Positions 2,088-51,666 of a stretch of DNA of 64,000 nt are shown piece by piece (positions within the stretch are counted from its first letter, which is position 1; each line of letters starts with the position of its first letter). The stretch is from Seriola aureovittata (Eukaryota; Chordata; Actinopteri; Carangiformes; Carangidae). The notes beneath the pieces were generated by a model, which did no database searches, was not told the DNA's origin, and worked only from the letters and a program-made list of their open reading frames with translations. The stretch spans positions 13,953,856 to 14,017,855 of the forward strand of contig NC_079368.1 of NCBI RefSeq assembly GCF_021018895.1. The letters run 5' to 3'. Position numbers and translations under genes: made by a program.

Positions 2088-3913
2088 TTAGAGCCATTTT
2101 CGGAGTGTAGACAGATTGTTGTTCATCCAGCGCTGATTCAACCTGATGGTTTCCAAAGCTTCCTGCACGCTCCTCATCTGAGAGCCACGCTCCTTCAGAC
2201 CGGAGAAGAAACCCTGTACCTTCACAACACACAAACACACACACACAGTGAGATGTTTGCTAGATCAGACTTGACATCTAGTAAAACAATAAAGACCATT
2301 TGGCAAACAGTTAATGTCTCACCATAAACAAGTGAACAGAGCCTCAAATACATATTCTATTAGAAGAAAAAAAACATACTTGATCAAGGTGGGCCTGTGT
2401 GGAGAACTGGGAGGTGGCAGACTTAATGATTGTCTGGATTGCAAAGGAGCCCACAGGGAATCTATAGCAAAAAACAATTGTAAATCAATACTGATGTCAT
2501 TTAATTTTTTCATCTTTATGTGAACTAATCCTTAAATGTATTCTCAATGACAACATGTATGAAGCAGACACAAACCACTTACTTCTCTATGAGTCGGTCC
2601 CAGTTCTCTTGTACAAAATCCCAGGCAAACAAGTAGCCAGCGAAGCCATTACACACAGTGCTGATGACCAAAGGCAACTCCTGTGTCTGGATGATATCCC
2701 CGTTTAGACCTGCCTTTAGAATCCTAGACAGACCGAAATAAGTGCTCTGTTCAAATGCTCTTAAGTGCATAAACAGCACTGACAATACCCTCAACCTCAT
2801 TATCATCACTTCTGTACACTCCTCTATTACACCCAGTGCAAAGCAAAATGCAAGTGTCTTTGCTAGTTTCAGACACAGGTGTGATTTTCCGGTCCAGCAC
2901 CCACATTGTTTAAAGAGCAAATACACTTGTGGTCATTGGCGTGTTGGTCTTAAAATGAGGTGTGGTCAAGCGCATTGTTGGCACGCATTGCTATCTTGAG
3001 GTGGACAGCAATTGTGCGATTGACCAACAAAAACCTGGTCTGAATATCGCAGTATTTCACTGTTATTCCAAGGGCTCATTATCAAGATAGTAATATGCAC
3101 CAAGATAGGCGAGTACACAACGTGCATTTATTCTGCCTGTTACGCACAAGCAGAGTGAGCTGAAAATGCATTTCATTCTTTGCACACACTGAAAGTCACT
3201 CTGGATGAGAATGTCATAGAATCTATATAACTGGACACTAACTCAAAGTTGAGCAATGACCTGGCCATGCCAATATATCAGCTGATATCTGTATCTGTGT
3301 ATAATTCAGAGAATAACTTACAAGTAATTGCAGTACAGAAATACTGAGGTTGATTTGTGACCACTGAGAGCACTGACAAGTTGCATTTTCCATTGTAAAC
3401 TGTCCCATTCATTCAGTAACTTGGACACAAACAAACCTAAACAAAAAACCAAGGAGTCCATTTTAAGATTAGCCTCAAAAATCAAGTATCATCTGGGTAA
3501 TGTACAATATATGACGATATATAATATGGTGATGAGGGTGACACTGAAGTATATGAAGCAACAATATTATATCAAACCCTGGCCTAGGTGGGAATCCTCA
3601 GGATGGTGTGGTCAAGTTTTTTTTTTTGGTTTTTTTTTACATTGAATTTTCTATGAAATTTCTTTCAGGATGGATTGATAGGATTTTGATGCACAGTTTT
3701 GTGAACTTGCATTAGTAAGCAGCCTGTTTCATCCACTGTAAGTACAAACCAAAGCAGGTGGAGTGGACTTGAATGAACTGACAGCAAACAACATGCATTA
3801 ACATTTAAAACATTGCTGCCCTGATGGGTCCAAATGAAACTGACTTGTTAAGTGTGTGTGTTCAACAAATCATGAATGAATGAAGAAAGGATGTTGCTGC
3901 TTGATTCTGTCCA

Positions 3914-3991
<78 letters not shown>

Positions 3992-5086
3992 TACAAACAC
4001 TTACCATACTAAACGACGTGTGTCCTGAGTGGATGCTAGGCCTTGTAGCATTTTTCGCTTCTCTGCATCATAAGTGTTATGTCCGTACATTTTGAGCAAA
4101 GACTCCCAACCTTCATCTGACTGAGCAGCCACAGTGAATACAACTCGCTGCAGATCGCCTGGTATCCTATGGAAATACATATAGAAGGAATAAATATGTA
4201 AACATAATTTACATATTTTACAACTGCTTAAAATTTCAGTTTTCTTCCACCAGCTCAAATTCCAGTTACCCATTCAATCAAGTTACAGCCGCCTCCACCC
4301 CTACTAAAGGTAATTTCTATCTCTAAAAAGAAAAGATGTGTGCCCTACACTGCTCACCCTGTTGCTAGCATGACCAGGATAAGAAAAATGAAAGTTTCTT
4401 GTGTGCTTTACATACCGTAAAGTGCTATTGGACTCATACTGTTTGAACAGGGCTTTGGCTTTTTGAGTACAATTTACTGCATTCAGACTGCAGGCCATCT
4501 CCAGCAGGGCTGAGCGCAGCTCCTGTTTAGACACACTCTCTTCCTCTTCCCATGTTTGATTTTCCATCAGAGAACCAAAATGATGCGTAATATAATTCTG
4601 TTACATGCAAGAAAAAAAAAAAAAACAGATTAACAAAATTAACATTAGAACACAAACACTAAACTCATGTAATGGGCTCTATCTCCAAGGAGTGTGTTTC
4701 GCACTGTCCTGTGCCCACCTGCTCAGAGCAGGTCAACTACTTGGAACACCTTTGTTCCACAGTATTTTCATCACAATTTATTATGTTTTGCTCATCTTAC
4801 CACTTTAATTTTCCATTTTTCAACCAGCTGACAAAAAAGTTTTATATTTGACTGGTAATAATGCCACCTAGACAGAATATAGAATGAATGATTGTTATCA
4901 GCTCTGTAATCCATAACATAAGTAGTCTACACTAATGGCCTCTACTGTGGTGAGCGTCTTTACAGCCATTTGAAGGTAGCAGGTATCTGTTCCTTCCGCA
5001 GTCATTTACAGGAGTGATGTTGTCACTGTTAAGCCACAATTACAAACGGCAGATCCTCTAGTTTCATTTTGTCCAACCAGCACCAG

Positions 5087-5158
<72 letters not shown>

Positions 5159-5880
5159 GTACCTTCATGCGGGCCACAAGAACATGCTCCTGTCTTTTGT
5201 CTAGCAGCATGTAGATACGATTGAGCTGTAGCAAGGCCTCTGTCACAGGAGAAGTCTCTGTTTCATTGGACATGTAGTTCAACAGTCTGAGGACCTGATT
5301 GAAGGATACACGTCCCAGTCTGGTGACAATGCAGGAAAGTGACCGGAAGAAGTGTGTGAAAGGAGAGTGAAATGCAAGAATTAGAAAATACTCCTCCACT
5401 TGTGTTTTTTAGTTATATAAGGTCCTCACTTCATCATTTTATGCAATTAGATATTTGTGTAAAATTTTGTGATTTGACCTTTGATCACCAAATTCTAATC
5501 AGGTCATCCTTGAGTCTAAGTGAATGTTTGTGCCAAATTTCAAGAGATTCTCTAAAGGCATTCCCAAGGTATCGTGTTAACGAGAATGGGACAGATGGAC
5601 AGACAACTTGAAAACATAATGCCTCCGGCCAGGCTGCAGCCAGCGCGGAGGTATAAAAAGACTCTTTAGATTTTCTCTCATACCTGGAGAGAGCAAAGAT
5701 GTTGTGTATGAGAGAGGCACGGTCCTCATGTGTAAGAACACTGACATTTTTGGACAAAGCCTCTATGAGAGCATCCCAGCCCTCATTTCCATAGTGGACG
5801 ATGTAGAAACCTGTGTTTCTGTAGTTCAACTTCAGCCACTTCACACTTTCTGGCAGCTTTAGAGTACCTAAAAACACACA

Positions 5881-5922
<42 letters not shown>

Positions 5923-8900
5923 TGTATCTTTTGACAATGCACCAAGGATTCTGAGGCTTAAAGGTAGAGTAAGCAGTGCAGGAGAAGACTTTTAATATTT
6001 GAACTCAATAGCAAAACAAATACACCCCTCCCTTCAGTGCTTCTTCAGAACTGCTAAAGCACGGACACATTGGTGAAATTATATAAAAGTAATACACGTT
6101 AGTTGGTTCGTTGGCTGTAAATTCATGTTATTGATTAGTCAGACTGGCCACTGTGGCTACTGGCTAGGCTAACAAAGGTTATGTTAGCCCAGAGTCAGAA
6201 TCAGAATTAAAAATTACTTTACTGTCAAAAGCATCGCACATATCCCAACTGCAGAACAGAGAAAGACTTAAACATTTCTGCTGATAGGAAACGATATGTG
6301 CCGGTGGAATATCACCCATCTCCCCTTTTCTCCGTTTCTTTCCATTCTCCTGTGCACAGGCACAAATGCCCCCTGTTGCTGATTGGCTGGAATAGTGCTG
6401 TGCTGCTTGGTGTGAGTCACTTTGTTTATTTCCCATTTACAGAGCCAGGGCTGTGTAGATTAAAATATCTTACTCTTCGTTCAAGATAGAAGATTAAAAC
6501 TTGGTGTTTTACCTGTCTTGTTCTTCAGAGTGAACACCTGTCTGCACTCAGGGGCCAAACTACAGCTGTCGTTTACGTACGTCACTGGAACATTCCACAG
6601 GCTGAAGAGAGTGCACAATGCAGTTATGGTTATGGCGTGTTTCTATGATCTGTGCGTGTGTCTGCGTGTGTGGTAATGTAACCCACCTGGAAGTATGCGT
6701 GGCATTGTCAGATGTGAGGAGGAAGTGCTCCTGTGTGAGGGTCAACTGACTTCCCTTGCGGCTCACAGTGACCAATGGGAAGCCTTTCTGTGATGTCCAT
6801 GAGCTCATCATCTCTGACACATTCTGGTGCTGCGTTGAGACCTCGACCTGAGGACAGGAAGAGAAATCCAGAGTCTGTGCAGGCAAACACCATTTTCATT
6901 GTCTTTTCTGTATATATGAAGATAATTGTGGGAGAGGTCTGAGAGTTAAATGGCAAATAGATAAATGGGATATCCACAAAAAGTTCACACAACTCAGAGA
7001 TTCCATCTAAACCATGTCCTTTAACTAAATAAGCCAAGCCTCAACACGCTCAAAATCCACTATTCTTGTTTTGCCATTTAATTAACTTTTTAATACTAAC
7101 AGACATTTAGGACTGGTAGTATCGTGGCATACCTCCTAATGACTCATGCAAGACTAGGCAGGTGCAACTAAAGCTTCAACAGAAGCAGCAGGGGCAAGTA
7201 ATGAGATGGCAGACTGCCATTAAACTAAGGGCACTTGGTGCAAGCCCTTTTGACAGTAATTATCCAATGTAATGTCTGTATCTAAAGTATCCTGTCCTCT
7301 GACTTCCATACAACATTATAACATTATCAACTATAATCACAAGTCATTTTCTGCCTTTTATGTCAATAATGTAGCTCCTGTGACACTGATCAGGTGTGAT
7401 TATGTGATGACAATAACACACGCTAAAAGCAGCTGATGTCAGGGAAAATAAACTTTAGCCAGATGGTTGGCTGACAGACTGCAGAGGGGACGTAAGGGTA
7501 GTAGCCAAAGAGATAAACTGCTGATGTGTAGTATCCAATATAATCAATGAAAATTGCACCAAAAAACAAAAGGGCACATAGACACACAGACACAGACACA
7601 GACACACACAGACACACCTGTGTAAGGCTGTTCCAGAGGTCGTTGGTGTCTGTGTTAAATCCACTGAACTGTTTTAGGTATTGAATGATACCTTTTCTGA
7701 ACTGCTGATCTCCTGGCAGAGAGGCATTCAGCATCAGAAGAATGGATGCACCCTGGTAGGACAGAGAGGCACAAAGCATCTGTTATCAGACACAAAACAG
7801 AGTGCTACAGTTTTAACCAAGTGTGAGGTCCAGTCAAGAAATGTCTCTGCTGGTTGCGGAAGTTCAGTGACTTAATGAAAACTTATCTACTTACATATTG
7901 TATATAAAAGTGTACCTTTTCATAGGAGACGGAGTCAAACATCTCTTCCACCTGTTCCGCCGTATTAACGTCGGTCGACACTGCATGGGAGGAGTTTAGT
8001 GCATCTTTGTCCAAGGCTCTGAATCGCACCGCCAGGAACAAATTACCCTGCAAACAAACACAGGACTTACTGCACAGGCACACAGTGAGGCACACAACTT
8101 AATCTTCTTCAAGTATGTGAGAATGAATTCATGATCCAGATGTGAGAGCTTACAATGTCCAGCTTGGGCAACACTATCTGTAGCGACATGTACTGCATGT
8201 AAGTGGCAAAGCCTTCATTGAGCCACAGGTCATTCCACCAGCTCATAGTTACCAAGTTTCCAAACCACTGCAACACAATCACAGAAAGATTACAACTTGG
8301 ATAATCTTCATGGCCTCTGCTACACAAAGACAAAAGGAGACAAACCTACCTGATGAGCGAGCTCATGCGCTATGACCGAGGCAACTACTTGTTTCTCCAG
8401 AGGAGAGGACTGTTTGCCCACCAGTAGGCTGGTCTCTCTGAAAGTGATGAGTCCCCAGTTCTCCATGGCTCCTGCCAGGAAGTCTGGGATGGCTACCAAG
8501 TCTGACAAAAGAAAAGGGAGCATATTCGGGTGTGTAAAGAGTGAAGAAAAGTAATAATCAGTGGGGGATAAATAGTGTGTATACTGTACACATTGCATGA
8601 AATGTCCGTGTGCCCTCACCTAGTTTTTTGAGGGGGTAGTCTATTTCAAAGAAGTTATTGTAGAACTCCAGGAGTTTGGAGGCAGTGTCCATAGCGTACT
8701 CAGTGTGCTCCTTCTTCTCTGGCACAGAGTACACAGATACCTAAAACAAGCAGACATAACTATCACATACATCCAGACAGTTTATCAGCAACAACACAAA
8801 CTTAAGTAAACAAAGATTAGAGGGTGTACAACCTGAATTAAAAGGAAAAACAAGTTATATCACTGTCATACCTACCTGAGTTTTTGAGACATTTTTGCTG

Positions 8901-11900
8901 ACCGGGGTGAAATTAGCAACAACGAAGGCCACCAAGTAGGTGCTCATGTTGACACTGGTTTTTTCAAACTCATCTTGCATGAGGCCACCAGTAAGTGGTG
9001 TGGATTTAGCCTGAAACACACAGCATAAGGACAAGATGACAACCAACAAGTCACTGTGGTCACAGGAATGAGTCACCGGTCCCTCAATACAGGGCAGAAT
9101 ATAGAGTGAGTGACTTCACATAATGTTGTTCTGAAAATTGTGGCTAGCTAGGTGACAAACATGACATTTCTGATGAGCTGCAGTTGACTATGTGTTATTA
9201 ACAAAATGCTAGTAACACATTAAGCCTGTAAACATTAAACATCTGTGCTAACCTAGTAATGCTGAGCACAGACACTGGTACACTCTGTTTTTTACTTACT
9301 ACATGAAAAGTATTTTTAAAAATGGTTTTCTTTAACAGTTTAACCTGTACTGAAAATTAAATGTGTCCCACTATTGAAACCAAATGTAATTAAAAATTGG
9401 GGTCTGTTTTATGTTAGTGTTTTTAGTTTCAACTGTCAAATACTGGCAGCCCTTATATCAAATATTCTGTAAATGCTAGAGTAGAAAAAATTATGTCAAC
9501 CAAACAAATACATTGAAGAAGCCATTTAGCAAACAAGATTTTTCAACACTTGGCTTCATTCTGTGAAATGAACAGATCATAAGTAATGTTACAGTACCTT
9601 TGGCATGTTGGAAAGGGTCATATAGTTTTGTTTCCTGTTGATTTTAATCAGGAAGGTGGCTTTGAAAGCTGGTTCATCAAAGCAAGGGAAGGCCTTCCTG
9701 GCTGACAGTGGTTCAAACTGGGTTGCAGCTAGGACTCTGGGGACAAGAGGGAGAGGAGCATGATAATACTGAAAACAAAATTTTGTTAAATGCATGTAAA
9801 ACAATAAAGCTACCTCCAATTTACATTTCTAACTGTTATTTGTTACTGCAGTTCATCTTTCAGCCACTGTGAAGTACTTACAGCACAGATAATTAGTCAA
9901 GTCTACCTTTTGTTTCCATCTTTATCAGTGTAGGAGCTGTTGTAGAAACCATCATAGGTGTGTGAGAGGTTGGCAGAGTAATCCAGGGTCAAAACACAGT
10001 ACTGGCCTGCCTTCAGCTCCTCTGAGAATTTAACAGCTATCTGCTGTCTGGGTTTGTACTCCAGTACAGTTACATCACTGGCCTCTCCATCACCCAGCTG
10101 GAAGAGGGAGAAATTATCAGTTAACAACTAGCAGACAAAAGCTGTTCAGGCAGAAATTAAATCATTGAATGCAGTTCTGTTCAACTAGTCAGGAAGACTT
10201 TTCACATTAGAGAATGACATCTAAAATATCTAAACTCTGTCACAAACCCCCTCTCCCAATCCCACCTTAAAGGTAGCTTTGGTAATGTTGAGATTAGCAC
10301 CATGCAGGACAATCCGCTTGGTGTTATGAAGCACAGACATGGAAATAACAGTGGAGCCAGTGAAGGTCATGTTGTCGAGGTCAGGTGCCAGGGTGAGGTC
10401 ATAGCTGAGAGGACGTATGCTGTGAGGCAGCCGGAGCTGAGCCCATGGAAACAGTTCGCCATTTGTGGACAGAGGGTAGACTGTCTCTACGGGAATGGTC
10501 TTGTTTGGCTTACGACAACCTGTCTGCAGAAGGATGGAGGGTTGGGTTGAGCCAAGGAAATAGGTGTGTGATTGAGTATAGAGCAACAGAGAAATAAAGA
10601 GGGAAATAGTCTGACAGAGATATTGACTTAATGTATAGAAACAGTGATTAATGTTATTGCAAAACCTACCTAAACAGAACTAGTGAATATTTTTCTTACC
10701 TTGGTAAAGGTGCATCCAGGTAAGAAGTACAGTACCATGGTCATAGACGCCACTATCACCAGGAATAACACACATACAACCATGGTACGGGCCGAGGGTC
10801 GTGAACATGACCTGAAACCAGGAAGAGTTTAACATCACTTACTTTGAATGCTTCTACATAAAGAATGAAAGGTAGCAGCATTCCAATGTACATTAACTTG
10901 TACATGCTTTGGCGGTTTACTGGATCTGCATAATGTAGAAAATGACACCTGTATAAATTTTCTAAGACTTGAGCAGGGAATAAACTGTCATATAAACAGC
11001 CAACAAGATAAACTGACATTAAGCTGCAGAAAAGTTTTAATGTCTATCATTTTGACAGCCTGATCTTTTCAGAATGATCATACAAACTGAGAACTGGGCT
11101 GATAACTGAGAATCTTTTTATGCCAAGATATTGCGCATTATTCCAAATGATGACCTTTTCAGTGCATTACCTTGGTGGAGCCTGTCTGGTGTATGGGGAA
11201 GAGTTGGATCTGTGAGCAGAGCTACGGTTCATGAAGGACATGCCCAACAGACGGGCTGAAGACTCACAGTCCTCCTCATCCTCGTCCATGTCATTCTCTC
11301 CCAGGCCTCGCACAAGCAGCCGTGAGCTACGGGGCTCAAACACCACCTCATCTGGGTCAAGAGCAGGAAATGTCTGCAGAGAGCATGCAAAGTACAATCT
11401 GTTATTCTCCAGTTAAGCTGTGCAGTGTTTCCCATGTAATGTTAATAACTGGATTGCACTCCCAGGTAAATTAATTAGCACAGGGTAAGATGTCATATGT
11501 GGAGGCGGTGAGCAGATTGGGGGCAGAGAGGGGAATAATGGGAAGTAATCAGGACAGAGAAGGGTCTAACAACAGGCCACAGATGACAAGTTAAATCATA
11601 ATGACAGGAAAGCATTTTTAGCATTTTTTTCAAATTAGAAATGTGGTTGTGGCAAAATAACAATCTTGGACATTAGGGATGTAAAGGGGGATGATATTTA
11701 AAGGAGGGTTTGTTGGGTGGCGTTATGATTAAGAATGTTTATATCAACAGAAATTGACATGGAGGAAGAATTCATTGTAAAGATAAGATCAAATTTACAA
11801 TTTACATTGTGAAGATACAGCATCTTCATCACGCTAAAATTAAGTTCCTTGTTGCTAGAAGTAATTCACACAATGCTGATTATATATAGGTAGAATATAA

Positions 11901-19000: not shown

Positions 19001-22000
19001 TTGTATTTAGCATCTTCTCTCTTCCCTCTTACCTGTGTGTGTTGTCATCAGGTGTCTGTGAATGGTGCTTGATGCATCGGTCTTGTATGTCAGAGGGATA
19101 TGCCAAAGGAAACTATACAAGAGCAGAGAGTATTCTTAAAAGACACAAACTAAAACTGAAAGTTGCTTGAAATCAAATTCTTGCTGACAATGGTTATGCA
19201 GCTGTGAATACATGTAGATGTGCATGTGCATGCTCACCCTTTCTGCAACGTGGGCCAGAGAGGGTCAGAAGGCAGGACTGTCCTCAGGAACCTGTCCTGT
19301 CTAAGCAGCAGACGAGGCCCCTTCCTTGTTACAGTTACCAGAGGAATACCTTTCTGCAGAGTCCAAGTGTTCATCATGGCTGTCAGATCGAGATGTTCCC
19401 CTGCAAAAAGGTACTGTAGGAGACAGCTGGAGATCAACACATGTGGCCGTAATCTTATAAATGGTGTGACATTTATAATAGGCAACTCATGAGGAGAGGT
19501 TAAAGAGTTTATGTTTAAATGTTTACTCACTGCATTCTTGGTGGCCTGGCCACTGCTGTAACAGTGTTTTCCTGAGATGAAGTCCTCCTCTGAGCATGTC
19601 TGAAAAACAGAATCAATTCTTTTTCAAATTCTATTAACCTGCATGAAGAAACTGTCATGCAGGTTAATAGAATTTGAAAATGATGACATTCAAAATCTAA
19701 AAGACTTTTAGATTTTGAATGTCATCTTTCTACCTTCATGGATTTCATTCCAGGTGAGTTCAGAGCAGTAAGAAAATTAAAGACTTTAAACTTGTTTGAG
19801 ATTGGTAATCCATCATAGTGAACACTATGTCTGCTTTTATTTTCAGCAGTGGTTTGTCTTCAATGCATGGCAAGGCAGTGAATTCCTTTTACTGTAAATC
19901 AATCTGCTCTCACAACTGCTTTACCAGGCACAGACAACATAACTTTAACTGCAATGAAAACAGACATAATCTTCACTTTGATTAATTACCTACTTTAAGC
20001 AACTTTCAAGTCTCAGCAAATTGATTTTTGCCCCACAATGAAAGGAATGGAAAACAACAGCTGTTTGGAAGGAGGGAAACATGAATCAAAAAGCTAGCAG
20101 AAACATAAAATATGGCTGACGTGTAATATATGGGCTAAAACAAAAAAAAAAAGATTTTAAAGAACAGCTGGAAAAATATGTAATGTATGATTTCTGTTCT
20201 TTGTCTTATGCCACAGCGGTTAAAAAGACGGGAAGGTAATTTGTAAAAACAGAAAAAACATATCTCAACAAGCGCAAGCTTCATGCTATTTCATTTTTTA
20301 GTTCAGATCAGACAGCTCTCATCCATTCATATAATTGTATCCCCCATAAAGAAAAACTTTGCTGCATCTATTTTTGACAAATTCAAATACAGTTCCTCTA
20401 GGCTGCCCCTTGACTTTTCTTCTACAAGATGACAAAGGACCACACTGTGTTTTGCATGTTGAATGTAATTTGTGTTCCTACGTTGGCTAGACTGTCCCAC
20501 AGGTCCTGGTTGCGTGCATTTTTGAAGCTGTATTTGCGGAGGTATCGCACTATCCCACTCTGAAACACATCATCTGTCAGAAAGTGTCGCAGCATGTGCA
20601 GGACACATGCTCCCTGGTGGGAGAGAGAGAAAGGGTCATTTTAATCAGTAAGCCACAACAGACTATGCTATAGGTTGGTTTCAAAGCCATTTGTGAAACG
20701 TTTTCTGTTACAGTGTTAATATAGAGATCAATTAGTAGTTCATCAATAGTTATGTAGTCATCATATGTGTTTTATTTATCCCTGATTTTGCAGGTTTTAC
20801 ATTTTCACAGATAATATATTCCTGATGATGTCATTATCAGTTGTGTAGCCCTCTGTGTGACTGAAAGCATACTTTGTCATAGGAGACTGTGTCAAACATC
20901 TCTTTGATCTGAGTGGGGTTCTCTGCTGGACTGGACATTGGACGAGAGGAGTTGAGCGAATCATGACCAACTGCTGCAAAGCAGGTGTGCAGTAGATATT
21001 CCTCCTGCAAGATTGTGCACAGAACATCATTAATAATCCTTGGGCCTAATGATTAATATTAATCTATTACTCAATGATGTCTCAGATGAAATCACACACC
21101 ACTTTGAGGTCAGGGTAGGTGGCCTCCACTGAAATGTACTCCATGTATCTGGCAAATCCTTCATTCAGCCAGATATCATTCCACCACTCCATGGTCACCA
21201 AGTTACCAAACCACTGCAGACAAGATTTAAAATTTTACTGCTTTGTGTTGACTGTTGAATGTAATGAATTGATTTATGAGCATCTGAACTACTGTAGATC
21301 AACAAACACTTAATCCTGTGTGTCATTATACGCTGTGGCACTCTCACCTGATGGGCAAGCTCATGGCCAATCACCATAGTAACCCAGAGTTTATCGGAAA
21401 CAGAGGATGTGAGGGGGTCAAAGAGAAGGCTGGTCTCTCTGTAGGTGGTCAGACCCCAGTTCTCCATCGCACCGGACTGGAAGTCTGGGATGGCAATCAG
21501 ATCTGAGGGAGGGAAAACTCAGGTCACAGAACTGAAAGTGACAAGATAAATGACAGAAATGTGGAGATAAAGAAATGCTCATTGGTTTAGTTACAGAACT
21601 AGAACAAAAAAAAGGTTTTACCTTGTTTGGGTAGAGGATAGCGGATGTTGAAGTACTCCTCGTAAAAGTCCAGCATTTTGACTGCAACCTCCAGGGCATA
21701 GTGGGTCTGAGACCACTTCTCAGGGGCGGCATAGATGGACACCTATAGATGCATAACAATACATTAAACATAACATGACAGAGAAAGTAATATTTTAACC
21801 AAGGAATTCAGAAAATCCAATAATGCTTTGGAGGCCTTACCTGCACTCCAGAGGATGTTGTTGCAGTGACCGATTTGAAATCACAGACGACAAACGCTAC
21901 AAGGTATGTGCTCATCTTCACGCTCGCAGCAAACCGGTCCTCGAGCAGGTCATTGTTTACTTCAACTGTCTTCACCTGAATTACACAAATATCTAATTGT

Positions 22001-23020
22001 AGCCATTTGATCACACACATTTGATCATGTATGATAGTTGATGTAGGAAATAGCACATGTGCAACACTCACTATTGGCATGTTGGAGAGAGAAATGTATT
22101 CCTGGCTCCTCCTGATCCGCAAAGAGAAGTTGGCTTTGAAGATTGGCTCATCAAAACAAGGGAATGCCATCCGAGCACTCGTGGGCTCAAAGTGAGTTGA
22201 AGCCAAGATTCTGCAAGGAGACATCAGCAGATACCTTTTGTACTTTATTGTAACTGTAACACATCAGTATGTGAATGTGTAAGAATCTATTCGCTCTTAC
22301 CTGGTCTCTCCTGTGCTGGTTTTGTAGGTGCTCTTATAGAAGCCGTAGAAGCCTTCTACTAGTTCTGCCCCAAACTCAATATACAGAAAGTACTTTTGCC
22401 CACTGCTGAGCACCCTGGGAGAGAAAATGCCAATCTGCTCATGCTGAGGGTTATGAAGAACTGGAAGAACCTACGAAGAGAAAATGAGATGTCAAATTAA
22501 TAAGAAATGGAGAGAAGTTGCGTCCAATCTATCCAAGTATCAAGGATAAGCAACCTCTAGCTCTGTATTTACAGCTACCTGGTCAGACAGATGAGCGAGG
22601 TTCTGGTTCAGAATGGTGGCATTGAAGATCTGTAGACCCTTGCTGTGTAATACAACCCAGTTTGTATTGTTCTGGACATCAATCTGGATCTGCACTGAGC
22701 CAGTGAAACTGAGACTGGTGAGGTTGGGGTGCAGGAGGAGGCGGTAGTGAAGAGGAATGATGTACCTACAGAAAAGAAATATGCGTTGCTTTTTTAATCA
22801 GAGACTCAAAAACAGAGGTCCAACAATTTTTGTCATCATTTTTCCCGTATTGCAAAGTCTACCTTGGCAGGCGAAGACGGCTCCAGGGGAAGGACAGTTT
22901 ATCAGTACCCAAAGGAGATTGTTCTCCTGGAGGGCTTGACGCCTGTTGTGAACTGTTGGGCTGACACCCAACTAGACACACATGAAATAGAGACAGCGCT
23001 AACAGCCTTAACAAGACCAT
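16028..23020 (-). CDS. erap2: endoplasmic reticulum aminopeptidase 2, 20 coding exons
   Basis: M1 zinc aminopeptidase of the ER lumen that trims N-terminally extended peptides for MHC class I. Coding exons (plus coordinates, last to first): 16028-16174, 16561-16642, 17506-17646, 17871-18032, 18156-18340, 18441-18597, 18751-18934, 19033-19112, 19238-19413, 19531-19599, 20482-20613, 20873-21004, 21100-21213, 21348-21502, 21622-21742, 21841-21975, 22072-22210, 22301-22470, 22579-22765, 22863-23020; about 941 aa with all phases agreeing. The first ATG (23020) begins a signal peptide ([18 protein letters not shown]). The GAMENWG exon reads into [19 protein letters not shown] and IGHELAHQ, then WFGN and NEGFA; the catalytic tyrosine is in SYDKGAC. 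The LLFDP..SSxSDKLWV stretch, the SEEDFISG insertion before the [13 protein letters not shown] exon and the C-terminal LFFES exon look closer to ERAP2 than ERAP1, but ERAP1-like identity is not excluded. Two introns start GTTTGT and GTTAGT rather than GTAAGT. Confidence 0.93.
16883..17393 (-). mobile_element. internally deleted Tc1/mariner-type transposon remnant
   Basis: The plus strand carries the recognisable antisense of a fish Tc1/mariner transposase: 'aggttccccttgtgccatc', 'gactccacaagacctctgaa', 'acatcccaaagatgcttgat', 'gaacattgcccc' and 'cttcttcccatagttcatcc', ending near 'cacctgtcacctgg' and 'ggctgatcgc'. Compared with the family as I recall it, large internal blocks are missing and both terminal repeats are worn. 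Frames are broken; it is a fossil. It lies in the erap2 intron between the exons at 16561-16642 and 17506-17646. Confidence 0.85.
19621..19726. repeat. two adjacent perfect inverted repeats (hairpins)
   Basis: First hairpin: a 26-base arm at 19621-19646 and its exact complement at 19655-19680, separated by 8 bases. One base later comes a second: a 22-base arm at 19682-19703 and its exact complement at 19705-19726, around a single central base. Both sit in the erap2 intron between the exons at 19531-19599 and 20482-20613. Neither arm codes for anything recognisable. Confidence 0.95.
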
Positions 23021-24040: not shown

Positions 24041-24256
24041 GTGGGAGTGTGTGTGTTTGAGAGAGAGAGGAAGATAATGTAGAGAATGTAGCTTCACATG
24101 GTGCCTTTGTTAAATAATGTCTTATGTAATGTCTTTTCCAGCTAATGTTAGAGGATACAGATGCTGATGTTAGTATAATGTGTAACTAGAATGGTTGAGG
24201 TGATCAGGTCAGGTGGTTAATATCAAACCTAAACTGGAGCATTTACAATGAAAAGA

Positions 24257-24529: not shown

Positions 24530-24783
24530 CGGGAGCTCACACTGTCTCCCTTTCTCTCTCCTTCTCAGAGTGTGTGTTTCAGTTGCGTGTTGGGACGGAG
24601 TGGGGGCATAGAGGAGGGGGTAGCATTGTTAGTATAAGGTCGCCAACAATGAGGCATGTCGATCCCCCATAATGCAATGCTCCTGGCAAATCCAAACGGC
24701 ATGCCCCCATTTCACACACACAGTAGGCGCACAAACACACACACTCACACAATATCACAGAATCCCCTCCGACTAAAGCAGAC

Positions 24784-25756
24784 ATGACTGAGCCATCCAG
24801 GGGTCTGTTTTACCTTCCTATCATCTATTTATGGACAGGTAAGAGCTTTTAATCTCTGAAACGTGATCCTGGTGTATGTTTTGGATCAATGAGCAAGAAA
24901 GTGCTGCAGCATTGTTCAGTAAAAACCTTATACATACAAAATATTGCCTGCCTTTACAGGGGGAATTTTACAGTTTGTGTTTCTAGCTGTCAAGTAATAA
25001 GGTTAAATGTATCTTTATTGTTATTATTATTATTATTTTATCATTTTTATCCTAATTTTGTATTCCTCTTCATGATCCTCCATCCTCCACCTGGGTCAGG
25101 TGGGGTAGAGGGTGATGTCCTGGCATCTCTGGCCCATCCGGTCCACCTGTCAGGGGAAAGGCTCGGCTGGACCCTGCTGGTTTGTATGGTTAGTGACTTC
25201 AGGAGGGGGCACCTAGAGGTCAGCTGGAGCTCACCATCAGAAGGCCACATGTTCACTGCACCAAACAGCATTGCTCTAAACAGGAAGCATCGCAGCCACA
25301 GTGCCGTGGCGATAATCACAGTGGTGACCAGTGACTGGCCATCGTACAGTTGCTCCATCAGTCGCAGACGACACCCAAAAGTCACCAGGAGACATCGCAT
25401 CACCTCATCAGGTGGGACTGAAGCGGATCACATGTGAAAATATCAGTCTTATTGTTTTTTACCAACCCTTTAACACATTTTTATCATTTCCGATGATCAA
25501 GACAAGAGTTGCTATGAAGATGAAGAGACAGAAGGTAAATTTGACTTATTTGCAGTTTCCAGTAAAAACAAAAACAAAAAAAAACAATTCTCCATGACAC
25601 ATTCTGCACAGATGTTGATCCTCATGTCGGTCTTTGTGGTCTCTAGACGTTGATGTGTGGACAAACACGGTGGTCGTACTGGCCATGAGGCTGCTTCTCA
25701 TGAAGATCATCGTCTTCAACACTCTGATGACCACTTACGCTGTTATTAAGTGGTAA
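24784..25756 (+). CDS. pre-TCR-alpha-like / TCR-alpha-constant-like membrane Ig protein
   Basis: Four exons join in constant phase 1: 24784-24838 (signal peptide, 18 codons: MTEPSRGLFYLPIIYLWT), 25100-25411 (312 bases), 25502-25534 (33 bases) and 25647-25756; about 169 aa. The second exon encodes a C1-type Ig fold: Cys in LLVCMVSDF, Trp in LEVSWSS, second Cys in SDWPSYSC, 56 residues apart. Its start (SLAHPVHLSGE) recalls mammalian pT-alpha. The 33-base exon gives an acidic connecting peptide with one Cys (DKSCYEDEETE), placed to pair with a partner chain. The last exon encodes VVVLAMRLLLMKIIVFNTLM then a stop: Arg and Lys five apart plus FNxLMT, the TCR-alpha/pT-alpha transmembrane signature used to bind CD3. 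I saw no V or J segment. It could instead be a relic or paralogue of a TCR constant gene. I leave the symbol blank because synteny does not prove orthology with PTCRA. Confidence 0.7.
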
Positions 25757-25947
25757 GAGTCTATGAGCATTAATTAGAGCAACATACAGCACATGTACAC
25801 TTGCAGATAAGTGTGGCATCATTCACTGTTATACAGGTTGTATAAGTACATACAGTATTATGTCTAAAAGTGCTTGAACTTGTTTTATTCACCATAACTG
25901 AATTACATTTTTTTCATATGACAGTAACAGTGTATTTGATTTTTCAG

Positions 25948-26312
25948 ATGAATGGAGAGCTTCTGCTGTGTGACCTTGAAAAAACAAACTAACCCAGAGA
26001 GGGGAACTTTTTCTTGTCTGAATCTATACAGTGATGATTTGTGCACTGGAAGATGATATGTTCCTGTGGTCTTACACAGAGCTTTTTGGAAGGTTTCATG
26101 GATTAAATGGGAAAGTATCCACTGTCAGGATCGCAGGAGAAGCAGCTCTCAAATGCTACAAATCTTTTGTCGCGCCATTTTCAGCCCTTCAGAACCGACA
26201 TCCCAGGTGTTGCTGACTGTGGCAGTTGAAAACAGATTGTGTTTGCGAAGCCAAACTTGGTATCTGTTCAAAACCTAACCTCAGACAGATGGGTTAGTGC
26301 ACATACTGTACA

Positions 26313-26364
<52 letters not shown>

Positions 26365-26490
26365 TGTGTGTGCTTCTGTTTGTCGGGTCTAATCTTTAAC
26401 TCTGAATTCCTTGAATTACTAAAACATTTGTAGTGAAAACTTGGCACAACGTTTTTTGGAAGTTTACAAAAAATAAAATAATTTTACATT
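25948..26490 (+). other. predicted 3' noncoding exon of the Ig/TCR-like gene
   Basis: The transmembrane exon contains a consensus donor (AAGTG/GTAAGAG, at 25752/25753) overlapping its own stop codon. A good acceptor (pyrimidine run then CAG/ATGAATGG) lies at 25948. If joined, the junction itself creates TGA. The exon would then be wholly untranslated, as in mammalian TCR-alpha constant genes. Candidate AATAAA signals are at 26472-26477, 26520-26525 and 26566-26571. A (GT)n tract at 26316-26362 lies inside. Confidence 0.45.
26316..26362. repeat. (GT)n microsatellite
   Basis: A GT tract of about 47 bases within the predicted 3' UTR of the Ig/TCR-like gene. Confidence 0.97.
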
Positions 26491-26551
26491 TGTTTTGCTT
26501 TTTATATTCTTGTAAAAGTAATAAACAGCAAGTAAGCTTGATCATTTTGAC

Positions 26552-26557
26552 TTTATT
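26552..26557 (-). terminator. candidate rgmb polyadenylation signal AATAAA
   Basis: AATAAA on the minus strand about 1.7 kb past the rgmb stop. It lies among the plus-strand AATAAA motifs of the facing gene, so the two transcripts end within tens of bases of each other or overlap. Confidence 0.4.
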
Positions 26558-26669
26558 GTTTTTTAAATAAAACACTTGCACACAGTTTGTTTCCTCAATT
26601 TTTTTCTTTTTCTTTTTTTTTTTTTCTTTTTGAGCGCCTTGAGTAACACACTGACATAGCAACAGAGCA

Positions 26670-28270: not shown

Positions 28271-29976
28271 CTAATACATCAACGCAACACTCAAAGCACA
28301 CAGCAGGAGCAGAGTGAGCCTTTTGATTGGTTGACAATCAGAGTTTAAGGTGGAGGTGGCGGAGCCACGGGGATAAATCCTCCATCTATCCCGGTGTGGG
28401 TGGAGACTCTCCATGTCCTTCTGGGCACTGTAAGCCGCCACTGTGAAATTAGCATCCCCGGTGGTCAAGAGATCAAACACGCAGGAGTGGAAGTAAATGT
28501 CTGGCTCCTCCAGCTTCTCCCTGCAGCGTTCCTTTGCCCCGTCCACACCGAAAACCTGCGGGGTACCGTAGGGGTACGCTTGTGTCTGTGAGGCGTAGCT
28601 GGGCCGACGTAGCTGCTGAAGCTGAAGGCCAAGCGCAGGAGGGGAGAGGGGCAGGGGAAGATGCCCTGCCTGGTCGATGCGCTCTCCACTGGGGCAGCCG
28701 TTCAGACAGAGCTGCAGGTCCTGGGTGGCATCATAGGCCTGAGCCAACTCCTCTGGGATCCGCACTGCCAGGGTCAGGTAGCGGCCCAGCTGGCGAACAA
28801 TTACAGTCACACCAATGTAGCCAGCATGCAGCTCCACGTGGTGCCCCGGGGTGCGCTCAGAGATCCAAAGAGCCCGGACCTTCCCGGCTGCCCCGTCTGC
28901 ACCAGCAAAAGTGTGGATGGGGTCTCCACTGCTCACGGTGCCATCATCAAAAGCAGCAGGGAGGTTGTCTGTGACGGCCTGGTAGACCCTCTGGTCTGTG
29001 CAACCCTCATAGGGCTTGAAGATGATGGTGATCTATAGAGCAGGAGAGAGGGAGCATCAGATAAGCTGTAGAGATATTTTAAGTTCAGTGAATGAAGTGC
29101 ATTTAAAAATGCAAGAGACAGTTCGCAGTTACAAAGTCAATTCATTAGATACAGGACAAACACAACTTTCATCAAAGAGCCGAGTGGAGCTGAAACAGAG
29201 TTTAAGTACACAGTTTTACATCTTTTGGATTCTTCCTGCTGATTGGACAAACATTCTACTCTGGAGACTTTACTTGGGGTCTGGGAAATTGTGACGGTCA
29301 ATTTCACTATGTTTTGACATTTTAAAGACCAAATGAGTAATTGATTATTCAAAAAATGATCAGCAAATCAATCAATAATGTCAATAATCGCAATTGCAGC
29401 CCTAATTCATTGTTTAGTGGATCAACAGAATTTAATTGGCAACTAATTTGATAACTGGTTTTCAAGCAAAAGAAAATCCTTCTGTGGTGAAGGTGTGTTG
29501 CTTTTCTCTGTTTTGTGTCATTGCAAACTGAATATTTTTTTGTTGGACATTTTATCAACTAAATCATTAATCTGTTAATCGAGAAAAAAAATCACCAGAT
29601 TAATTGATTATGAGAACTATCAGTGGTTACAGCCCTAGGTAAAAAGTCTCTCTCACACTCACACACACAAATATTAACATTCACCTACACAGGTTATTGA
29701 CTCTTATCGCACGACATTTGAGAAATGACTTAATGACTTTTTAACAAGTTGTAATTTGACACAGCTATACAAACATGCTGACACATGCACACACACACAC
29801 ATACACATAAAAACACACGGGGCCCCAGTGGTGAATGGAAGCCGTGGTGGATACAGGGTGTGGTGTGAGCATTACGGTTAGCACTAGCATCATAGTTCCG
29901 GTGAATGGCTGCTTTGTTCACATGACAGCTGTGAGGAATGAGGCCTGGCAGGCCATTAAGCCTGGAGGGCTGTTAA

Positions 29977-30007
<31 letters not shown>

Positions 30008-30300
30008 GTATAAGAGTGTGTGTGTGTGTCCCTAATAATCATGACTAATAACTTGCCCCACCTCTGACACAAGGTTAGACCTTCAGCTCCACCGTGTAGC
30101 AACCCTGCTGTTTGCTTAATATGTGTGTGTGTTTCTGCCAATGAGTGTATGACTAAGTGTATGTATGGGTGTGTATGTGCTTTAATAATTAAAGCTATCG
30201 ACTCAACTAGAGAGGGTAGATCATTGGGGGAAACATCAACATCGCTTCTTTCACACCACAAAGATCACCTTGTGTGGCTCGTCATCCATTTCGTAGAGTG

Positions 30301-30343
<43 letters not shown>

Positions 30344-30771
30344 TTGTAAGTGCAAGTGTATCATTTTTGTCATACAGGGATAAGGACCTTTAACACACAC
30401 AGTGCTTTAAGTTTAGTGTGAGGAGTGCCACTTATGAGACACGCACGCACACACAAATACTTGCGAACACACACATAAGTAAACAGTAGGTCCTTTCACA
30501 CATCTCATTCCATGTTATTAGAGGTCATGCTATAAGCAGCCATTAACCAAGTTAGGTTTCCAACACTGCTTCAGTCAAATAAGACAGTCACAAGATCGGG
30601 CTGTTTGCCTCACATCTGTGAGTGAAAGACACAGAGAGAGCGAGACGGGAAGAGAGAGGAAAATAGAGCATGGAGAGCAAGGGTGTTTTCCAGGCTCACA
30701 CTGATAAGATTTCCTTCTCTGAAACACAGAAAAGCAACTTAGAGGTCATTATAGAAAATGTTTCTCTCTGA

Positions 30772-30820
<49 letters not shown>

Positions 30821-32401
30821 ACACACACTCACAGAAATAAACTAAATTACACCAGCTGCTCTCACTTAGGAAACTCTTTCAGCCTTAATGACAGCAAATT
30901 AGACCCCAAAAAGCCCACTTCTCTCTGCTTCCCCCTTTGCAATAGCTCTCCTCTCACCTTATTGGTTGCCGTGGCACTCGAGCCAGGTACCACGGGAACA
31001 TTAGTGACCTGCACCGACAGATAGTCATTATCGATGAGAGGCCACGCCCCCTCCACCTTACAAGTCTGGAAGCTGTCCTTAAATGTCCTCAGGTGTGGGT
31101 CCCCAAACAGCCCGCAGAATAGGTACCCAGGCTGAGAGTGGCTGTGGCCATGGCCGTGCGCATGGGCATGTGTGTGTGCATGCACGTGGGAGTGTGTGTG
31201 GGCGTGTTGGGTGCGACTGTGGTAGCTGCAGGGCTCGGGGTGGACCTCGGGGTGCGTGGAGGAAGTGGGCCCGTCTCTGGAGCAATTCCTCTGGCTCATG
31301 AGGTCTGAGATGCCCAGCACGGCCGAGTGGAAGACCAGGTTCCCCCGGCAGGACTTGGCTGTCCTCTGGGTGCAGGCCGAGTACGCACGTAAAGCTTTGC
31401 AAAATTCAGTGTGAAAGCCATCCACAGCCGGCGTCAGGTGGGAGGTCAGGGAGACGAAGTCGGTGGTGCACTTCTGGATACGACACTGAGGGGTGGCCAC
31501 TTGACACTGACCTGTAGAAGACACACACACAGGGAGAGTCAGAAATACTGCAAGAGAGAAACATACACATCTCATAATTTAGGCAGGAATGAGACTGAGA
31601 GCTGGCTCTCACGAGAAATGGAAAGTTGATGTGCTCACTTTAGACAACTACGGCTACTGTCTGAAGAAGGCTTTGATCTTAAACACACAATGCCACCAGC
31701 CTGTTACAATCCAGCCTAATACAGATGGAAAAAGAACCAGCCGCTGGTTCAAAGTCTTGATCAATCAGCAGAGCTGCTCTGCGAGTGTAATAAACCTGAA
31801 GTGTAATAAACCAAAGAGCAGCCAGAGAGAAAGATAAAGAACATTTTCCCACAAGCCAAGGATAGACAAATCTTCAACACATAAGGTATGGTAGCCAGAG
31901 ATAACTTGACAATACAGCGTTTGCTTCGCATGCATACACACTACCATGATTCAGTAAAACTCTTTGTTCACACTGTTTTGTAGATTAAATTCTGTAGTCA
32001 TTTTTGAGGCAGCTGTCTTTGTGCCTGTCCTGCATAACAGCAACACTGAAAATAATACACAATCAAAATTTCCCTTTATCAAATATGACTTTAAGTTATG
32101 TTTTCTTTTTTTTTTGGGCAGATTAATGTTTGTTTACAGCTATAATCATGATCACCAGAGCAGGCTGAAGTACGGAAATGCATCCAAAAGACTGATTATT
32201 CTGTCCTCCGAATGTTCTGAATGTAACAAGGGTCAAACCAGCCTTTTATATCATAGATCATCAGAGAGAGAGAGGGAGAGACAGAGAGAGAGTTGGAGCG
32301 AGAGAGAGATTAGAGACCATACCTAATGCATCAGTCACAGCGTGCTCCTATTAGATTAGGCCAGAGAGAGAGTATGGGCAGCTGCACACACGCGCACACA
32401 T

Positions 32402-50812: not shown

Positions 50813-51666
50813 CAGAGACTGAGTGAGGGAAAGAAGGAGAACAAGAAGCAAAAGAGGGAAAGAGGGAGCCCTTGGGGTCTAATAAATCAGGCCTGCATTG
50901 AGCAGGAGGGTCCTGGAGGATCTTGCATGGGAAGACAGGTGTCCATAGCATTCTGGGGCAGAGGTTACGGTCAGACATATCAGTCATTTTATACAACACA
51001 CACACACACACACACACACAGACACAGGCAGGGCTGAAATTAACCAGAGACAAAACCCATTTCCTCCTCTTGTACTTCATTACCATGTCACAGCCCTCTG
51101 CTTCATATTTGGTTTTGTTTTAAATGTGAAATACTGCTGTGATCAAATAATGAGAGCAAAAGGCAATGCGAGACGCTTTTGTAAACAGTTTACCATTGAT
51201 TACTCCGGCGCTTATTGTGTTTCACTGTGTTTTTCTTTCAGTTTATAAAAAAGCAAGGCTGGCACCTTAGTGCACTGTGGCGGTGGCTCCCTGACAACAT
51301 TAGCATAATAACAATTCACAGGCTGGAGTTATGGAAATGAAATAAAATATCATTCTTTTATTCTGCAGCACGCAGCAGTATTCCACTAAGACATCCAGTT
51401 ATTATACATGACAAATAGGAATTAAAGACACGAGTTTGAGCCAGAATGAAGGTCTCTCCCACTGCCTCCCTGCTGTTTGAGTGTGTATGCCTGAGGTGTG
51501 TCTATGTGTATGTATATGAATGTGTGTTTGTGTAAGTTGCATAACCCTGGATCGATAGTTCAGTCGCTGTAATAAACACAGGAGGTCCTGGGAAATGGAG
51601 CTGTATATTTGTTTCTGGGATAAAACCAGAGCTGTCAACTGTCCATCATCTGTTTGAGTCATTTCC

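Follow-up and report, generated by a model that had tools for sequence, protein, structure and literature searches.

In a 64,000-nucleotide stretch of the genome of the fish Seriola aureovittata (NC_079368.1, positions 13,953,856 to 14,017,855; here referred to as the window and numbered from its first letter), we found an intact four-exon gene model, which encodes a single C1-type immunoglobulin (Ig) domain and a membrane segment of T-cell receptor (TCR) alpha type, with no pattern of variable (V) or joining (J) segments nearby. We consider that this candidate probably encodes an invariant, never-rearranged chain of TCR-alpha type, most likely the pre-TCR alpha chain of fish (pT-alpha, PTCRA), and we give this reading a probability of about 0.65.

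The four plus-strand exons join into a coding sequence of 510 nucleotides (nt) and 169 residues that is free of stop codons inside the frame. Each intron has GT/AG ends and lies in phase 1, and 261 bp separate the leader exon from the C1 exon. The leader was recognized by hydropathy alone, as a short hydrophobic core. The key residues of the protein are Cys47, Trp61, Cys103, Cys126, Arg148 and Lys153. Exon 4 supplies the membrane segment VVVLAMRLLLMKIIVFNTLMT, with R148-x4-K153 and FNTLMT, and the chain ends 8 residues further; no N-glycosylation motif is present in the 169 residues. The Pfam C1-set model gives 22 bits for the whole protein, against a cut-off of 21, and 23.6 bits for exon 2 alone. 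Exon joining and Pfam together thus confirmed the first-pass annotation, which had described an all-phase-1 gene with a leader, a C1 domain, an 11-codon peptide with a Cys, R-x4-K and FNxLMT.

The splice sites were scored with a weight matrix built from textbook frequencies, with percentiles relative to the sites of the window. The exon 1 donor (CAG/GTAAGA) stands at the 99.9th percentile among the GT sites, and the donors of the second and third introns at the 99.0th and 99.4th. With the same matrix, the acceptors of exons 2, 3 and 4 reach the 94.8th, 79.7th and 94.0th percentiles. The mediocre acceptor of exon 3, the weakest of the three, is what speaks for a non-functional relic or a decaying gene, whose frame is open in this individual and which is unexpressed or unconserved. 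We regard such a relic as very unlikely, since the 510-nt frame stays open from the first exon to the fourth, the donors and two of the acceptors score well, and none of the landmark residues is lost. Moreover, the proportion of G and C is 0.52 in the coding exons versus 0.34–0.36 in the introns.

A single match to R-x4-K-x3/4-[ND]-x-[LM][LM]-T lies in the window, and none of 40 simulated 64-kb order-2 Markov sequences contains one. A looser C1 pattern is found twice in the window (the other occurrence is at 51092 on the minus strand), versus 14 times in total in the 40 simulated windows. Both patterns were composed after the gene had been seen, and therefore more weight is given to the ranking of the window peptides, for which all 2133 six-frame stop-to-stop peptides of at least 20 residues were searched with a pT-alpha profile made of human and mouse sequences. 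Exon 2 leads the 2133 (E 0.04), followed by exon 4 (E 0.22), in the correct order and on the correct strand, and the third-ranked peptide, which is unrelated, has an E value of 0.38. The joined protein obtains 19.7 bits with this profile (E 7.3e-5 for the same search size). A chance reading frame was set aside on the pattern counts, the simulated windows and this ranking. In addition, a viral-contig scan with the protein returned six pattern stretches, none of which was confirmed.

Pattern scans found no V-like or J-like match in the 64 kb, and a gene using V and J segments was set aside; the first-pass annotation had seen no V or J segment in the gene. Recombination-signal-like sequences are not in excess, with 30 on both strands against about 27 expected in 64 kb. 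A location of TRAC type, behind J segments in a TRA/TRD locus, was likewise not found by the scan.

We searched 177,635 distinct PDB sequences and recorded matches up to E 10. The 49-residue query of connecting peptide plus membrane segment gave 11 matches, all of TCR-alpha type, with a best E value of only 0.12; 10 are named TCR alpha, and the remaining one is a delta-constant fusion with alpha letters in the aligned membrane part. In pairwise alignments the membrane parts of HLA-DRB and mu have no match to the candidate segment, and the connecting peptide and membrane part give Z -0.96 against lambda. Four pairwise alignments were compared in detail, two of them with pT-alpha, and no others than these two span the chain from the leader junction to the membrane motif. 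An MHC (major histocompatibility complex) or Ig gene was set aside, as the membrane segment bears both Arg and Lys and matches TCR-alpha. The signal for pT-alpha is confined to about the first 34 mature residues (22–34) and the membrane segment, and the remaining domain is generic C1. For the first 43 mature residues, human pre-TCR-alpha (3of6) stands at the top of 50 PDB matches, and in this alignment GVEGDVLASLAHPV of the candidate lies opposite GVGGTPFPSLAPPI.

Several results weigh against a pT-alpha identity. First, the E value of the match to 3of6 is weak (0.035), adds up three weak stretches and concerns a likeness that had been spotted before the search; a shorter N-terminal query of 32 residues gave no PDB match. 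Second, the Pfam PTCRA model reported no match to the protein. Third, Ig chains lead the PDB matches of the whole protein, with no TCR-named chain among the best 60 of 1004. Fourth, the C1 domain past mature residue 34 is unlike pT-alpha (p 0.74–0.80) and resembles lambda, mu and HLA-DRB. Fifth, the membrane motif FNTLMT is closer to TRAC than to pT-alpha. Finally, the profile search that the first-pass annotation had proposed as a check gave a mixed result: the pT-alpha profile does place exons 2 and 4 on top, but with the joined protein as target the lambda constant reaches 21.5 bits (E 2.5e-5), above the 19.7 of pT-alpha, and a combined TRAC and TRDC profile nearly equals pT-alpha (19.4). 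The other families score lower, namely mu CH4 14.1, HLA-DRB 13.4, TRAC alone 12.8 and TRDC alone 10.1 bits, with TRBC, IGKC, TRGC and B2M at 6.2 bits or less. As a yardstick, human pT-alpha was itself used as a PDB query, and the best 60 of its 63 matches comprise the pT-alpha structure itself, followed by Ig chains throughout; the C1 cores of this family are therefore poorly placed by sequence.

The C1 core also bears on the idea that the gene is no surrogate chain at all, that is, a constant gene serving rearranging segments that lie beyond the window, or some other C1 protein of MHC or Ig type. Splices from J to constant exons are also in phase 1, the core is generic with the lambda constant as best match, and the structure model comes nearest to MHC class II beta, although with low confidence. 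This model, a single-sequence AlphaFold2 prediction of exon 2, is too poor for placement in a family (mean predicted local distance difference test score (pLDDT) 49.9, predicted template modelling score (pTM) 0.42), and is consistent with a C1-like sandwich. Foldseek returned 1642 matches to it up to E 10, none at 0.001 or below; MHC class II chains make up most of the 50 matches listed and include the best one (E 0.006), as found with a model of low confidence. Against this idea, the gene has a leader exon of its own with an intron before the C1 exon, there is no V-like or J-like pattern in the window, single-copy genes of other kinds flank it on either side, and its membrane segment is of TCR-alpha type, which the membrane parts of HLA-DRB and mu do not match. 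We give it hardly any credence.

When the candidate is compared with known chains, it shares with pT-alpha its own leader, the lack of V and J, one C1 domain with Cys-Trp-Cys, a Cys in the connecting peptide, R-x4-K with [ND]-x-L-x-T, and similar first 22–34 mature residues. In human pT-alpha, too, the end of exon 1 splits a Gly codon behind its first base, in LPTG, where the candidate has LWTG. Such split-Gly phase-1 leaders are widespread in Ig-superfamily genes, and therefore this likeness supports but does not prove a pT-alpha identity. Isoform B of human pT-alpha is made by skipping of exon 2. The candidate differs from pT-alpha in its genomic place, in being almost tailless, in FNTLMT versus the human FDLLLT, and in the later part of its C1 domain, which is not recognizable as pT-alpha. 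With the Ig lambda constant it shares the best C1-core score, but the connecting peptide and membrane part are unlike. With TRAC it shares the type of membrane segment, the very short tail and the separate exons for connecting peptide and membrane segment; teleost TRAC has three exons (passage in PMC5972329). By contrast, salmon TRAC has 110 residues in three exons (passages in PMC8559430), fewer than the about 150 codons of candidate exons 2–4.

These likenesses to TRAC suggest another origin, in which a duplicate of a TCR-alpha/delta constant gene left the TRA/TRD locus, gained a leader and became invariant independently of amniote PTCRA. Its product may be a surrogate alpha chain by convergence or part of another receptor. 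The membrane segment nearest to TRAC, the 19.4 bits of the TRAC and TRDC profile, and the very short tail all agree with this origin, as would a 3' untranslated exon, which TRAC genes carry separately; we consider this origin rather unlikely. Such an exon is possible in the candidate because its stop codon overlaps a GTAAGA donor (unscored) and a T-rich acceptor precedes 25948. Splicing between the two leads to an immediate TGA, and the last residue may alternatively be lost through the stop-codon donor (25753–25948). Taken as a pair, the identities that the first-pass annotation had offered, a fish pre-TCR alpha or an overlooked TCR-constant-like chain, are supported by the TCR-alpha-type membrane half, the full-span alignments with pT-alpha only and the lack of V and J.

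Strict orthology to amniote PTCRA is favoured only tentatively, at slightly short of even odds, and we give the same odds to a wider proposal: the candidate would be a true PTCRA orthologue in an ERAP-RGMB block of ray-finned fish, pT-alpha would be at least as old as the bony-vertebrate ancestor and lost or overlooked in amphibians, and fish would have a beta checkpoint with a surrogate alpha chain. A further point against this is synteny, as amniote PTCRA adjoins CNPY3 according to passages in PMC9614664 and PMC12529555, whereas the candidate is flanked by ERAP2-like and RGMB-like genes. The orthology claim was therefore lowered, although CNPY3 marks the amniote orthologues and not the protein family.

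The proposal also departs from the literature. Passages of PMC6747487, PMC11759298, PMC10464911, PMC5840141 and PMC8559430 state that teleosts or fish lack PTCRA or that the gene has not been identified there. Some of them draw conclusions from this: the lineage decision may differ in fish (PMC6747487), the stage at which beta selection takes place in medaka could not be pinned down (PMC11759298), and teleosts might have no pre-TCR signalling (PMC5840141). Elsewhere zebrafish is listed without PTCRA, which is argued to be an amniote innovation (passage in PMC12529555), a survey of tetrapods likewise states that it arose in amniotes (passage in PMC9614664), and its lack in ectotherms is "indirectly suggested" (passage in PMC9138301). 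The passages available from PMC4558533, PMC5972329, PMC8656973 and PMC5339814 make no mention of fish pT-alpha. No contrary report on fish PTCRA was found among the open-licence PMC papers listed, up to 2025; preprints and most subscription journals lie outside this set, so that a report could be missed. These passages agree with the first-pass annotation, which had placed pT-alpha in mammals and sauropsids and knew of no established teleost gene.

The coordinates of the candidate and its neighbours are given in Table 1. As the first-pass annotation had proposed, the neighbours are ERAP2-like and RGMB-like by Pfam and PDB searches. The Pfam and PDB evidence for the ERAP2-like gene comes from the exon at 21811–22263, and its start codon, proposed by eye at 23020, lies 1764 bases from the candidate. 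Two aminopeptidase genes of M1/ERAP type are apparently arranged in tandem on the minus strand (2582–10679 and 19237–23020). Pfam M1 or ERAP1_C domains were found in the exons at 10233–10679, 5488–5991 and 21811–22263; the exon at 2582–2932 is below the cut-off, and 19237–19623 was assigned by eye. The stretch 32000–64000 is rich in CA/TG and CT repeats, and many of its open reading frames (ORFs) of at least 110 residues are translations of repeats; two ORFs from it showed no family in a Pfam scan, and the stretch perhaps represents upstream introns of the RGMB-like gene. Upstream of the candidate start codon there are three E-boxes (CAGGTG/CACCTG) at 24210, 24336 and 24420, within 211 bases, the window rate being 0.875 per kb. 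These sites were picked afterwards and prove nothing, and the numbers of upstream E-box, GATA and CSL motifs carry no weight in our reading. In mammals, E proteins drive PTCRA.

Table 1. Positions of the candidate gene, its associated sequences and the neighbouring genes in the window.
Feature	Position	Strand	Description
Exon 1	24784-24838	+	Start codon and hydrophobic leader; 55 nt; phase 1 end, splitting a Gly codon behind its first base
Exon 2	25100-25411	+	Single C1-set Ig domain; 312 nt, 104 codons; Cys47, Trp61, Cys103
Exon 3	25502-25534	+	Acidic connecting peptide with Cys126; 33 nt, 11 codons
Exon 4	25647-25756	+	Membrane segment with Arg148/Lys153, FNTLMT, very short tail and stop; 110 nt including stop
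Possible alternative 3' exon	25948-26570	+	Mostly untranslated; acceptor, AATAAA at 26472, 26520 and 26566; 3' end guessed
TATA-like sequence	24633-24638	+	151 bases 5' of the start codon; pattern match only
Start of ERAP2-like aminopeptidase gene	21811-23020	-	Head to head with the candidate; Pfam Peptidase_M1_N; best PDB match ERAP2, E 1.1e-31
RGMB-like gene	28274-31578	-	Tail to tail with the candidate; Pfam RGM_C and RGM_N; best PDB match RGM domain family member B

If the candidate is transcribed and acts as a pT-alpha, its leader would direct the chain to the endoplasmic reticulum of thymocytes that have just produced TCR-beta. There, its C1 domain would pack on the beta constant domain, with Cys126 forming the interchain disulfide, and Arg148 and Lys153 would recruit CD3 zeta-zeta and one CD3 heterodimer in the membrane. 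The resulting V-less receptor would report a successful beta rearrangement before TCR-alpha is made. The near-absent tail is no bar to such a role, because the PTCRA tails of non-eutherian mammals are also shorter, with fewer or no prolines (passage in PMC9614664).

If this is true, a fish pT-alpha would reverse both the published absence of the gene in teleosts and the view that it is an amniote innovation, and work on zebrafish and medaka would gain a knock-out target at the beta checkpoint. If the candidate is instead an independent derivative of a TCR constant gene, surrogate alpha chains would have arisen twice, which would also be of note.
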